A DNA stretch of 64,000 nt from Bacillota bacterium. GTDB lineage: Bacteria; Bacillota; Clostridia; UBA1381. The stretch covers positions 1 through 64,000 of the forward strand of contig JAQXIJ010000021.1 of assembly GCA_029007725.1 (NCBI GenBank), given 5' to 3'. Positions 7,397 to 11,678 of the stretch are shown here, piece after piece. The translations under genes and the position numbers were made by a program. The notes beneath the pieces were generated by a model. That model had not been told where the DNA came from. It made no database searches and saw nothing but the letters and a program-made list of their open reading frames with translations. Position 1 is the stretch's first letter; the number at the start of each line of letters is the position of its first letter.

Positions 7397-8725
7397 TTAA
7401 ATCTGTCTTAAATATTTGGGGAAATGATTTTTAAGCACACCGTCCGATGCCTTTCCCCAACCTATCGGGCAGTTATTATATAGTACTGCGCACCACCCCT
7501 TTTTATCACTTGCAAGCGTTTCGCCACGATAAAATTTCTCAGGCTCGCGGGTATCTTCCGTAATTTTAAAATCACTGCTTTCAAGCGCCACGCACAGCGA
7601 ATGCGCCGGCTCAAACCTGCCCTTTTTACAGGTTCCGAGCATAAGGCCCGGCAGAACGACTTTTATTTTATCAACATCCAGTTCATACGGTATTAGGTAC
7701 AGACGGTCACCGAATCCTACTATTTCTCCGTGCAGATGCGTATTAAGGCTTTCATGCTCAAACTGCCTGAATATATCCTCGTTTTGGCAGTCATAGTGCT
7801 TTTTGCATATGTTTTTCTGTCCGCCGGTTTTTTCAAACAAAGCGATGAAATGGCCCTCGCCTTTACTTCTATGCGGAAAAATACGTTTTGTCATCGACAA
7901 GTCAAACTCGCTCTCGCACCACTTGCCGTTTCCATCTGAAACACCGTCAAGTTCTATTGGCAAAAGACGCATATATGGGTACTTTTTTAGTATGTAGTCC
8001 ACCACTCCCTCGTTTTCACAAGGGGCAAAGGTACAGGTTGAATAGACAAGCTTTCCGCCGCCCCTGAGCATTCTCAGCGCAGAATCCAAAATATGCTTCT
8101 GCCTCACCGCACAGGAACTAGTATGCGTCTCGCTCCATTCCTCTATAGCTTTCGGTTCCTTTTTGAACATACCCTCTCCCGAGCACGGTGCGTCAACTAT
8201 TATCTTATCAAAAAATCCGCCATATTTCTGTGCAAGCCGCTCCGGCGATTCGTTTGTTACAACCGCGTTTTTTATGCCCATTCTCTGAATATTCTCCGCA
8301 AGAACCGCCGCACGTTTCGGAATTATTTCATTGGCAACCAGAAGTCCGGTTCCTCCGAGTTTTTCCGCTGCATGTGTTGCTTTTCCGCCCGGGGCCGCAC
8401 ACAAATCAAGCACAAAATCTCCATTTTCAATACCAAGAGCCTCAACCGTTGACATTGCCGACGGTTCCTGAAAATATACCAATCCCCCCATATGATAAGG
8501 GTGTTTCCCCGACAGAACCGACTTGTCAATATAATATCCGTTTTCGCACCACTTAATACGCTCTAGTTTACCGGTCAGCTCTGTAACAATTTCGTATGAG
8601 TTTTTCTTAAGCGGATTTATGCGTATTCCGCTGTAAACGGCGCCGTTTTCAATAGCATAGGCAAAATCGGCATATTCGCTTCCCAGCATATTTTTCATTC
8701 TGTTTTCAAATTCCAAAGGAAGCAT
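7397..8725 (-). CDS. rsmF: RsmB/RsmF/NOP2-family RNA m5C methyltransferase
   Basis: A 442-aa SAM-dependent enzyme that methylates cytosine C5, probably in 16S rRNA. Conserved parts: DLCAAPGGKATH (SAM binding), DAPCSGEGMF (catalytic Cys in the PC motif) and YSTCTFAPCENE (second Cys). The C-terminal 150 residues match the RsmF-type RNA-binding region of Firmicutes. The start is the ATG at 8725, which overlaps the upstream TGA (TGATG) and has GGAGG upstream; an in-frame extension to 8776 lies in the upstream gene and is unlikely. Exact target (which cytosine) cannot be told. Confidence 0.92.
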   Translation of the reverse strand: MLPLEFENRMKNMLGSEYADFAYAIENGAVYSGIRINPLKKNSYEIVTELTGKLERIKWCENGYYIDKSVLSGKHPYHMGGLVYFQEPSAMSTVEALGIENGDFVLDLCAAPGGKATHAAEKLGGTGLLVANEIIPKRAAVLAENIQRMGIKNAVVTNESPERLAQKYGGFFDKIIVDAPCSGEGMFKKEPKAIEEWSETHTSSCAVRQKHILDSALRMLRGGGKLVYSTCTFAPCENEGVVDYILKKYPYMRLLPIELDGVSDGNGKWCESEFDLSMTKRIFPHRSKGEGHFIALFEKTGGQKNICKKHYDCQNEDIFRQFEHESLNTHLHGEIVGFGDRLYLIPYELDVDKIKVVLPGLMLGTCKKGRFEPAHSLCVALESSDFKITEDTREPEKFYRGETLASDKKGWCAVLYNNCPIGWGKASDGVLKNHFPKYLRQI

Positions 8726-9852
8726 CAGTTGTCTTTTTCCTCCGTTTTTCCGACAAGCTTTATTATAAAATCGCACAAATCGCGCGTAGAATCAGGTTTC
8801 CCGAGATGAGCCACACTTGAACGCAGCAACTCGAGCCGCCAAGGATTTTTTAAAATTTCAAACAGGGCCTCGTCAATTCCGAAAGTTTCTGTCACCATAA
8901 TTGCCGCTCCGTTATTAACCAAAAACTCCATATTCCTGTCTTCCTGCCCCGGAATAGGATTCATTATGATAGCAGGAAGCTGCTTTGCCAGGAGCTCTGA
9001 GGTAGTGAGTCCTCCCGGCTTTGTTATTATACAGTCGGACGCATCCATCATTACGTCTACATTATTTACAAATCCGAAAGGTATCACTGTCTTTTTCCAG
9101 ATATGCGACTCGATTTCCTTATACATCTTTTCATTTTTTCCACACACGCACAAAACCTGAAAATCAATATCAAGCTCGTCTATTGCCCTAAGTTCCTTGA
9201 AAATATTTCCGAAGCCCATTGATCCCATCATCAGCAAAATCGTTGTTCTGTTGTCTATTCTCAGTACGCTGCGAGCTTCCTCCTTAGACATTTTTTTTGA
9301 GAATTTAGGTTTTATCGGTATACCCAAAGGCAATATTTTTTCCCTGGATATACCCTTCTTTTTCATCTGATTGTCAAGCAGCGAATCGGCGGTAACGTAA
9401 TAGTCAAGGTCGGTGCTTTCCCAAAACGGATGCACCGTAAAATCTGTTACTATACCTATCAGCGGACAGCTGACAATTTTCTTTTCACGCATATATGTCA
9501 TCAACATGCACGCATACGAATGAGTACCTATTATTGCGTCAGGATTATATTCGCACACATATTCCTTCAACTTATGCGACACTATCTTTGACAAAACCGC
9601 AATTGGTGAAAACTTTTCGTATTTTTCATCGTGTTTATCCAGCTTGGAATATGCTTTTCCGTAAATTTCCGGAATATATTTTGTAGAAAAAAGATATCCG
9701 TTATCTATTGAATCCGCAAGCACGGGATTTATGTATTCAAAAGTATCAAGCATTTCGCATTCGACATTTTTATTACGAAAGCAGTCTATCATCGCCTGAG
9801 CAGTGGAATGATGCCCAAATCCTGCCTTTACCGAAATAATGAGTACTTTCAT
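8725..9852 (-). CDS. MGDG synthase/UgtP-like diacylglycerol glycosyltransferase
   Basis: A 375-aa GT-B fold enzyme of the GT28 family that probably adds a sugar from a nucleotide donor to diacylglycerol, making membrane glycolipid. Evidence: N-terminal GFGHHSTAQAMIDCF (MGDG_synth domain, about residues 12-26), MMGSMGFGN and ITKPGGLTTSELLAK (about 275-290), the donor-binding segment shared with MurG. Substrate (glucose or galactose, number of transfers) is not visible. First gene of a three-gene operon with the m5C methyltransferase and the COG2426 protein. Confidence 0.88.
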   Translation of the reverse strand: MKVLIISVKAGFGHHSTAQAMIDCFRNKNVECEMLDTFEYINPVLADSIDNGYLFSTKYIPEIYGKAYSKLDKHDEKYEKFSPIAVLSKIVSHKLKEYVCEYNPDAIIGTHSYACMLMTYMREKKIVSCPLIGIVTDFTVHPFWESTDLDYYVTADSLLDNQMKKKGISREKILPLGIPIKPKFSKKMSKEEARSVLRIDNRTTILLMMGSMGFGNIFKELRAIDELDIDFQVLCVCGKNEKMYKEIESHIWKKTVIPFGFVNNVDVMMDASDCIITKPGGLTTSELLAKQLPAIIMNPIPGQEDRNMEFLVNNGAAIMVTETFGIDEALFEILKNPWRLELLRSSVAHLGKPDSTRDLCDFIIKLVGKTEEKDN

Positions 9853-9863
9853 TTTTATCCCCC

Positions 9864-9892
9864 TTGAAATTTATATATAAGTATGTTATAAT
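9864..9892 (+). promoter_or_regulatory. Promoter of the amidotransferase-like/ECF/hpt operon (plus strand)
   Basis: Plus-strand -35 TTGAAA (9864-9869), 17-bp spacer, -10 TATAAT (9887-9892). It faces the minus-strand promoter and shares its -10 region. The expected start of transcription near 9899 leaves a leader of about 50 bases before the ATG at 9950. Confidence 0.75.
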
Positions 9893-9919
9893 TATACCAT
9901 ATGCGATTATTTTTTTCAA
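9891..9919 (-). promoter_or_regulatory. Promoter of the glycosyltransferase operon (minus strand)
   Basis: Minus-strand -35 TTGAAA (9914-9919), 17-bp spacer, -10 TATAAT (9891-9896). Its -10 box overlaps the -10 box of the divergent plus-strand promoter by two bases, so both cannot be occupied at once. Confidence 0.75.
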
Positions 9920-9949
9920 GATAAAGTTTTGTCGAAAAGGAGGAAGCCT

Positions 9950-10471
9950 ATGGTACTTTATATGGGCGAAAGAGAAATTTTCGATTATTTGGCGGCAATG
10001 TCTGTGCCAGTAATTTTTTCAAGCACTATATCTCAGGCGGAAAAAATTATAATTACAGAGTACTCAGACCAGGCAGTACGCCTTATACGCGAAGCTATGC
10101 TTATAAACGTACCTGTTCTCGGTATTCTGGACGGATTTCGGAGCGTGGTAAGTGCGTTCGGAGGAAGATGTGAGGACATCGAGTGTGCCGAGGGCAAGCA
10201 GGAATGGGCCGTTGCCGACACATCGGTGCCTATATATAAAAATTTGGAAACAACAATCCGAATTTGCCGCGGAAAACCTGTCGGTGTTGTTGAGACAATA
10301 CTTCCTAAGGAGCTTGATTGCATAACTCGCTCGGACAGTGGAGATATTCTTGCTGTCTGCAACCTGATTGCTCCCAGCAAGCACGGCAACATCTACGGCA
10401 TCAACTATTACATCGCGTCTGACCTTACTCCCGACGCCGAAAAAATAATCAATAATTTTTTAAATATTTGA
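9950..10471 (+). CDS. Class I glutamine amidotransferase-like protein lacking the catalytic triad
   Basis: A 173-aa protein whose layout follows class I glutamine amidotransferases of the PabA/TrpG kind. PVLGILDGFRSVVSAFGG (55-72) matches the nucleophile-elbow segment, where the canonical G-I-C-x-G has Leu60 in place of Cys. The C-terminal YGINYYIAS (149-157) aligns with Y-G-V-Q-F-H-P-E-S, so His becomes Tyr154 and Glu becomes Ala156. All three triad residues are therefore gone and glutaminase activity is unlikely. The ATG at 9950 follows AAAGGAGG; a TTG at 9929 is less likely. It is followed 10 bp later by an ECF S component and then hpt. Function is unknown; a ligand-binding or partner-stabilising role is a guess. 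Confidence 0.75.
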   Translation: MVLYMGEREIFDYLAAMSVPVIFSSTISQAEKIIITEYSDQAVRLIREAMLINVPVLGILDGFRSVVSAFGGRCEDIECAEGKQEWAVADTSVPIYKNLETTIRICRGKPVGVVETILPKELDCITRSDSGDILAVCNLIAPSKHGNIYGINYYIASDLTPDAEKIINNFLNI

Positions 10472-10481
10472 GGAGCTAAAA

Positions 10482-11018
10482 ATGAATAAAAAAACAAAAG
10501 ACCTTGTGCTCGCGGCACTTCTTACCGCAATTTCAATCTTGATCACATATTCGCCGCTGAGACTGCAAACACCGTTTTTCACACTCACACTCGGTGCGCA
10601 TGTTCCGACGCTGATTGCAATGTTTATCAATCCTTGGGTTGTAATTATGACTGTCATCGGCAGCTGCCTTGGATTTTTTATGGTAATCCCGGCACCTAAT
10701 TCAGTAATAGTCGTTGTGCGTGCCGCAACACACATTATTTTTGCACTCGCCGGCTACAAAATGATAAAAAACAAAACAGTGCATCCGCTGATTATTCTTC
10801 TGGTCACTGCACTGCTTCACTCCTCCACAGAGGGAATAGTCGTTTACATACTGACTCCAATTATTCTCGGAAATCAGACGGCAGCTATAATAACCGCTGC
10901 CACCGCCTTTATCGGGACATTCATCCATCATTTTCTGGACTCTGCAATATGTCTGCCGATTTTATACGCTCTTGCAAAAGCAAAAATCATTCACTTACCG
11001 CAGAAATTTTTATATTAG
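10482..11018 (+). CDS. ECF transporter S component, NiaX-like
   Basis: A 178-aa membrane protein with about six hydrophobic segments. It resembles substrate-binding S components of energy-coupling-factor vitamin transporters, especially the niacin type: LGAHVPTLIAMFINPWV (about 37-53) and the APNSVIVVVRAATH stretch (70-83) match that group's pattern. S components use shared EcfA/EcfT subunits, which are not in this window. Niacin is the best guess; the following hpt gene leaves a purine or other base possible. The start follows GAGGAG and lies 10 bp after the preceding gene. Confidence 0.8.
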   Translation: MNKKTKDLVLAALLTAISILITYSPLRLQTPFFTLTLGAHVPTLIAMFINPWVVIMTVIGSCLGFFMVIPAPNSVIVVVRAATHIIFALAGYKMIKNKTVHPLIILLVTALLHSSTEGIVVYILTPIILGNQTAAIITAATAFIGTFIHHFLDSAICLPILYALAKAKIIHLPQKFLY

Positions 11019-11029
11019 GAGATTTTACC

Positions 11030-11569
11030 GTGCATAAAGATGTCAAAAAAATTTTAATTACAGAAGAACAAATAAATTCCGCAGTTTGCAGAATTGCAGA
11101 CGATATAAACCACGATTTAAACGGCGAGCCGCTGCTTATGGTAATAATTTTAAAGGGCTCAATGCCTTTTGCCACCGACCTTATGCGTCACCTTACCATG
11201 CCGCTGACACTTGATTATATGCAGGTTTCGAGCTATGGAAAAAATATGTCCTCAAGCGGTTTTATAAATCTGAAAAAAGACCTTGAGCAGGACATAACCG
11301 GTAAAAACATACTCATTGTTGAAGATATAATCGATAGCGGTAACACCCTAAAAAAGATTAAAACGCTTTTAGAACACAGAAACGCAAAGTCCGTCCGTAT
11401 ATGCACTCTTCTTGACAAGCCATCACGCCGCGTTGTCGATGTCACCGTTGATTATGTAGGGTATGAAATTCCGGACGAATTCGCTATTGGATACGGTCTT
11501 GACTATAACGAGCTTTACCGCAATCTTCCGTACATAGGCGTTCTGAAACCATCAGTTTATCAGAAATAA
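11030..11569 (+). CDS. hpt: Hypoxanthine (guanine) phosphoribosyltransferase
   Basis: A 179-aa cytosolic enzyme that makes IMP or GMP from hypoxanthine or guanine and PRPP. The PRPP-binding motif ILIVEDIIDSGNTL is clear (about residues 98-111), as are ILKGSMPFATDL (PPi loop) and the C-terminal DEFAIGYGLDYNE. The start is a GTG at 11030, seven bases after TTAGGAG; an upstream in-frame ATG at 10949 would overlap the transporter gene by 70 bases and adds no conserved sequence. Last gene of a three-gene operon closed by two terminators. Confidence 0.95.
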   Translation: MHKDVKKILITEEQINSAVCRIADDINHDLNGEPLLMVIILKGSMPFATDLMRHLTMPLTLDYMQVSSYGKNMSSSGFINLKKDLEQDITGKNILIVEDIIDSGNTLKKIKTLLEHRNAKSVRICTLLDKPSRRVVDVTVDYVGYEIPDEFAIGYGLDYNELYRNLPYIGVLKPSVYQK

Positions 11570-11576
11570 CACACGT

Positions 11577-11612
11577 GGTGTGCAAACAATATTTTGCTTT
11601 GCACACCTTTTT
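11577..11612 (+). terminator. Rho-independent terminator of the hpt operon
   Basis: GGTGTGCAAA (11577-11586) pairs with TTTGCACACC (11598-11607), followed by TTTTTC. Confidence 0.85.
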
Positions 11613-11650
11613 CATTATATATTTAAAACCTGTCTTTTTATAGCTTCACG

Positions 11651-11678
11651 CACTGCCTTTTTAGGCAGTGTTTTTTTA
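11651..11678 (+). terminator. Second terminator-like hairpin before the GntR cassette
   Basis: CACTGCC (11651-11657) and GGCAGTG (11664-11670) flank a six-base loop and are followed by seven Ts. It backs up the first terminator and insulates the regulated promoter downstream. Confidence 0.8.

Follow-up and report, generated by a model that had tools for sequence, protein, structure and literature searches.

The window analysed here is a stretch of 64,000 nucleotides from a clostridial genome assembly that is 97.6% complete. It carries a putative operon of three genes and a divergent neighbour, with the following features.

8725..9852, minus strand: divergent MGDG-synthase-like glycosyltransferase gene, a conserved neighbour (PF06925, 114 bits; synteny)
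9864..9892, plus strand: promoter-like TTGAAA-17-TATAAT of the pseudo-GATase operon (11/12 matches)
9891..9919, minus strand: promoter-like TTGAAA-17-TATAAT of the divergent MGDG-synthase-like gene (sequence match)
9950..10471, plus strand: pseudo-GATase, 173 amino acids, with a predicted triad-less class I glutamine amidotransferase (GATase) fold, apparently derived from TrpG/PabA (PF00117, AlphaFold2, Foldseek, tree, motif table)
10127..10129, plus strand: pseudo-GATase codon 60 (Leu), where GVCLG has its nucleophile Cys (TrpG/PabA alignment)
10409..10417, plus strand: pseudo-GATase codons 154-156 (Tyr-Ile-Ala), at the His-Pro-Glu position (TrpG/PabA alignment)
10482..11018, plus strand: predicted ECF transporter S component, probably NiaX-like, 178 amino acids (AlphaFold2, Foldseek, relative beside a putative NiaR-type regulator)
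11030..11569, plus strand: hpt, predicted hypoxanthine phosphoribosyltransferase, GTG start, catalytic motifs intact (TIGR01203, motifs)
11577..11612, plus strand: terminator-like hairpin GGTGTGCAAA...TTTGCACACC then TTTTT, 3' of hpt (direct reading of the sequence)
11650..11671, plus strand: second terminator-like hairpin after hpt (sequence)

The pseudo-GATase frame starts with an ATG and has GGAGG, a good ribosome-binding site, 6 nt upstream; 10 nt separate it from the S component gene, and 11 nt separate the latter from hpt. The operon and the MGDG-synthase-like gene have a common promoter region. Shuffled sequences are expected to yield about six sites like the operon promoter-like site in this region, so that the match is weak alone; a site resembling it can be read in some relatives. 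The upstream region (window 9853-9949) also holds a block, ATTATA...TTCAAG, that is present in 10/10 aligned upstream regions from four genera and that, on the minus strand, looks like a promoter for the MGDG-synthase-like gene. Riboswitch control of the operon was considered and rejected, the sole Rfam match within the window being a distant tRNA.

The first-pass annotation of this DNA had described the 173-amino-acid protein as a class I GATase layout in which Leu60, Tyr154 and Ala156 stand for the catalytic Cys, His and Glu, and this is confirmed by the open reading frame, the Pfam profile, the structural model and the Foldseek search. PF00117 (Pfam GATase) matches the window protein barely over its cut-off (E 5e-5) and, at E<=0.01, matches each of the 14 sequences in the family alignment; the NCBIfam models that respond are those of TrpG/PabA and GuaA, far under their cut-offs. 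The AlphaFold2 model, computed from 14 sequences, has a pLDDT of 94.2 and a pTM of 0.91. Its best PDB match in Foldseek is Escherichia coli PabA (8rp0; E 1e-14, TM 0.84), and the other top matches are GMP synthase subunit A and TrpG. As modelled, the pseudo-GATase fold is that of a class I glutamine amidotransferase, and a structural match to this class, with PabA as the best, was indeed found.

TrpG/PabA serves anthranilate synthase and aminodeoxychorismate synthase as their glutaminase subunit. In the alignment with TrpG/PabA, GVCLGHQ becomes GILDGFR in the window protein, FHPES becomes YYIAS, RYHSL becomes RGKPV and HGKQS becomes EGKQE, Leu60 lying within GILDG and Tyr154 and Ala156 within GINYYIAS. 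The losses exceed the triad, as the PGPG and YHS loops are gone too: the oxyanion loop (SPGPG in TrpG/PabA) aligns to a gap and the glutamine-binding YHS loop is replaced by G-x-P. In the 13 full-length orthologues the Cys position is occupied by L, H, V or M and the Glu position by A, S, H, Q or N, and the catalytic His is retained in two only (G018 and G031, LHPAS). The proposed loss of all three triad residues thus holds for the window protein and, in the orthologues, for Cys and Glu, but not for His in these two. No close relative with an intact Cys-His-Glu was found among the orthologues, and 46/46 of the nearest outside homologues inspected, which are clostridial TrpG/PabA proteins, have intact G[VI]CLG and FHPE. 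Glutamine hydrolysis by the known GATase mechanism needs elements that the pseudo-GATase does not have; since triad and glutamine loops are absent, hydrolysis by this mechanism would be impossible, and we infer that the protein is devoid of amidotransferase activity.

Pseudo-GATases were found in 14 of the 95 genomes of the order (E 1e-69 or better); these 14 belong to six genera of a single uncultured family, and the other families represented among the 95 had none. The 13 orthologues show 38-75% identity. A sample of 391 genomes of the class contained no pseudo-GATase outside the family, the members found there all being from the window's genus, and the next matches after them were TrpG/PabA (E 1e-26 vs 1e-89). 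A scan of GTDB contigs gave 13 loci, all in metagenome assemblies of clostridia, among them Candidatus Avimonoglobus intestinipullorum; the carrier lineage consists of gut-associated clostridia known from metagenomes only. A mobile or viral origin was rejected, as viral contigs held no relatives and plasmids gave one weak TrpG match only. In the tree, the pseudo-GATases form one clade (support 100/100), with a stem length of 2.7 changes per site, nested within clostridial TrpG/PabA (node 100/99); the alignment is short and long-branched, and the exact sister group is not claimed. Judged from this tree, the clade has a single origin inside TrpG/PabA.

At E<=0.001 the class I GATases of the window genome are CarA, GuaA and PyrG, identified by length and sequence, and the pseudo-GATase only; TrpG/PabA was not found among them. 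TrpE/PabB (PF00425, chorismate-binding enzyme) is absent from 13 of the 14 carriers, the window genome included, and the only carrier with TrpE and TrpG, G009, has them as an intact pair elsewhere in its genome. A silent TrpE/PabB partner is ruled out, because a host without TrpE/PabB offers the pseudo-GATase no synthase to accompany. The same absence could be expected if the gene were a decaying or dispensable TrpG/PabA remnant left after the loss of tryptophan and folate synthesis, an explanation that we find scarcely credible: there is no internal stop in any of the 14 carriers, dN/dS is 0.06-0.14 in the within-genus pairs where it is computable (values like those of the S component gene, hpt and the MGDG-synthase gene), the orthologues have new invariant residues in common, and G009 has the pseudo-GATase alongside its separate TrpE-TrpG pair.

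The genus holds one more class I GATase whose catalytic residues are damaged. CarA of the sister species G004 (L192:802-1932, a single metagenome assembly) has GIGLGHQ in place of GICLGHQ, and HPDS in place of HPES, unlike CarA of the window genome, which is intact.

Seven columns are conserved both in TrpG/PabA and in the pseudo-GATases with different residues in the two groups (D to G6, T to I34, L to D61, H to E81, Y to G108, S to P110 and Q to N152). C106, R107, Q84 and E85 are invariant across the orthologues; C106 and E85 are new invariants of the pseudo-GATases, the TrpG column at C106 being Ala or Gly. By alignment, the new invariant residues occupy columns that line the TrpG/PabA active site. 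Strong purifying selection despite the lost catalytic parts points to another function, and as far as these sequence patterns tell, the protein is a case of neofunctionalisation, not of decay. The earlier view of a pseudoenzyme rather than a decaying gene is therefore upheld by the fold, the clade-wide loss, the purifying selection and the new invariant residues. The other function might equally be catalytic: Cys106-Arg107, Glu85 and Asp61 could constitute a replacement site in the old cleft, and the protein would then catalyse a new reaction other than that of an amidotransferase. The invariance of C106, R107, Q84 and E85, the acquisition of the Cys and the strength of selection would all suit such an enzyme, but R107 is merely inherited from TrpG and no class I GATase-fold enzyme is known to have such an arrangement, so that we regard this explanation as quite unlikely.

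The third gene of the operon encodes, by its sequence, a hypoxanthine phosphoribosyltransferase (TIGR01203, 215 bits for a cut-off of 150), in which the PRPP motif VEDIIDSGNT, LKGS and GYGLD are present. The three-gene order, about whose conservation the first-pass annotation had asked (pseudo-GATase, then ECF S component, then hpt), is found in 10/14 carriers and breaks down in the remaining four, including G009 and G011; in these counts G007 is split over two contigs, and the MGDG-synthase position of G031 cannot be judged. Ignoring the S component gene, which is missing between the two others in G031 and G020, hpt is directly downstream of the pseudo-GATase gene in 12/14 carriers. The MGDG-synthase gene is divergent from it directly in 11/14, and with one intervening gene in G011. 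The S component gene is confined to pseudo-GATase carriers (11/11, among 70 genomes of the family; Fisher p 2e-10, with genomes treated as independent of relatedness). In G009 the pseudo-GATase, S component and hpt genes are all apart, hpt being seemingly in its common tilS-hpt-ftsH place, and the G011 assembly has the pseudo-GATase without an S component gene and without a real hpt.

These two genomes present further particularities. In G009 (L040:1265-1819) the pseudo-GATase gene lies behind an apparent ribosomal infC/rplT operon, not before hpt, and a small frame divergent from the S component gene, which seemed to be a pseudo-GATase N-terminus, proved to be no relative. In G011 (L042:8731-10119) a CDF cation-efflux transporter and the pseudo-GATase form one uninterrupted frame of 462 amino acids, with an internal ATG preceded by a ribosome-binding site before the pseudo-GATase part; this frame is either a fusion or a stop-less overlap.

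Another possible role for the pseudo-GATase is that of a protein without a ligand of its own that would assist Hpt (or the S component) structurally or by regulation, as TrpG partners TrpE. The position of hpt immediately downstream, at times with no S component gene between, argues for such a role, as does genus g1, in which the two genomes that lack hpt (G006 and G008) also miss the pseudo-GATase and the S component. Against it, the Hpt of the carriers is canonical and groups in the Hpt tree with that of genera g6 and g8, where the gene is absent (two changes needed), and both G009 and G011 have the protein away from any hpt. We consider this role somewhat unlikely. In G015 the MGDG-synthase gene adjoins hpt and the pseudo-GATase is absent, and therefore operon membership is maybe an inherited position; the pseudo-GATase-hpt linkage is real, but may in part be inherited in this way.

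The S component is, as modelled, of the ECF S fold: the AlphaFold2 model has a pLDDT of 89, and its top 11 Foldseek matches are all ECF S components, among them RibU, PanT, BioY, FolT and ThiT, with a probability of 0.89-1.00 and E of only 0.02-0.5. EcfT (PF02361) is present in the window genome (G000). Class-wide relatives of the S component occur in many contexts, and one of them (L179) immediately follows an HTH_11+3H gene, which its NiaR architecture designates as a putative NiaR-type regulator. NiaX is a predicted niacin ECF S component under NiaR control, and NiaR represses niaX in Streptococcus pneumoniae (PMC5343564). The NiaX profile model did not match the S component of the window. 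In the window genome NadA was not found, and one frame matches NAPRTase weakly (E 6e-6). The first-pass description as NiaX-like therefore stands for the fold and gains from the relative behind the NiaR-type gene and from a host without NadA and with a NAPRTase-like gene; NiaX is the likeliest identity, with niacin as its putative substrate.

In conclusion, the pseudo-GATase is very probably a functional protein that is not a glutaminase. We propose that a TrpG/PabA-type glutaminase subunit changed a single time, in an ancestor shared by some members of an uncultured clostridial family, that glutamine binding and hydrolysis were lost, and that the protein was retained because it had taken on a task other than that of a glutaminase, most likely that of a small protein that binds a ligand or a partner and is co-produced with a niacin-type S component and Hpt. 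The remodelled former active-site region (D61, E81, Q84, E85, C106, R107, G108, P110 and N152) would bind either a partner protein or some small molecule. To this model as a whole we give an even chance. Judging by the operon content, the candidates to consider first are nicotinate, a purine base, a nucleotide and Hpt itself, and it is possible, if somewhat doubtful, that what the protein binds is part of base salvage. The first-pass annotation had inferred a role in sensing or handling a base, nicotinate or a nucleotide; the results spoke neither for this role nor against it, and a functional link of this kind is plausible. A fuller version, in which the remodelled pocket is a sensor for one of these compounds (nicotinate, a purine base or a nucleotide) and vitamin ECF uptake is thereby coupled to phosphoribosyl salvage, is distinctly improbable.

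We found neither a paper on a triad-less TrpG/PabA relative nor a stand-alone class I GATase pseudoenzyme surviving without a synthase in the open-access literature searched; the pseudo-GATases are a new pseudoenzyme family. They offer a clean case, in which a single origin and the loss of catalytic elements are combined with a switch to new invariants under strong selection, and the finding of a ligand or partner would show how a glutaminase scaffold can be put to another use in bacteria with reduced biosynthesis. Among known systems, NiaX resembles the S component by its predicted S fold and by the class-wide relative behind the NiaR-type HTH_11+3H gene; unlike NiaX, the S component described here stands between the pseudo-GATase and hpt. 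GATD1, a GATase-like class 1 protein, is a subunit of the FERRY complex (PMC11928052) and is a precedent only for a GATase-like protein as a complex subunit, being eukaryotic and part of a different complex. Vertebrate CPS I, the ammonia-dependent carbamoyl phosphate synthetase, has kept its class I GATase domain and lost the catalytic Cys (PMC7657897), but there the domain remains part of a synthase, whose product is still formed from ammonia, whereas the pseudo-GATase is stand-alone, with no synthase known. The closest system is TrpG/PabA (PDB 8rp0, 6qur, 1qdl), compared with which the pseudo-GATase is about 15-20 residues shorter, is without the Cys, the Glu, PGPG and YHS and mostly without the His, and lies in another operon, in hosts that nearly all lack the TrpE/PabB partner. 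It shares with TrpG/PabA the fold and the phylogenetic origin, and retains the GK of HGK, the Arg of RYHS and the TP..NF tail.
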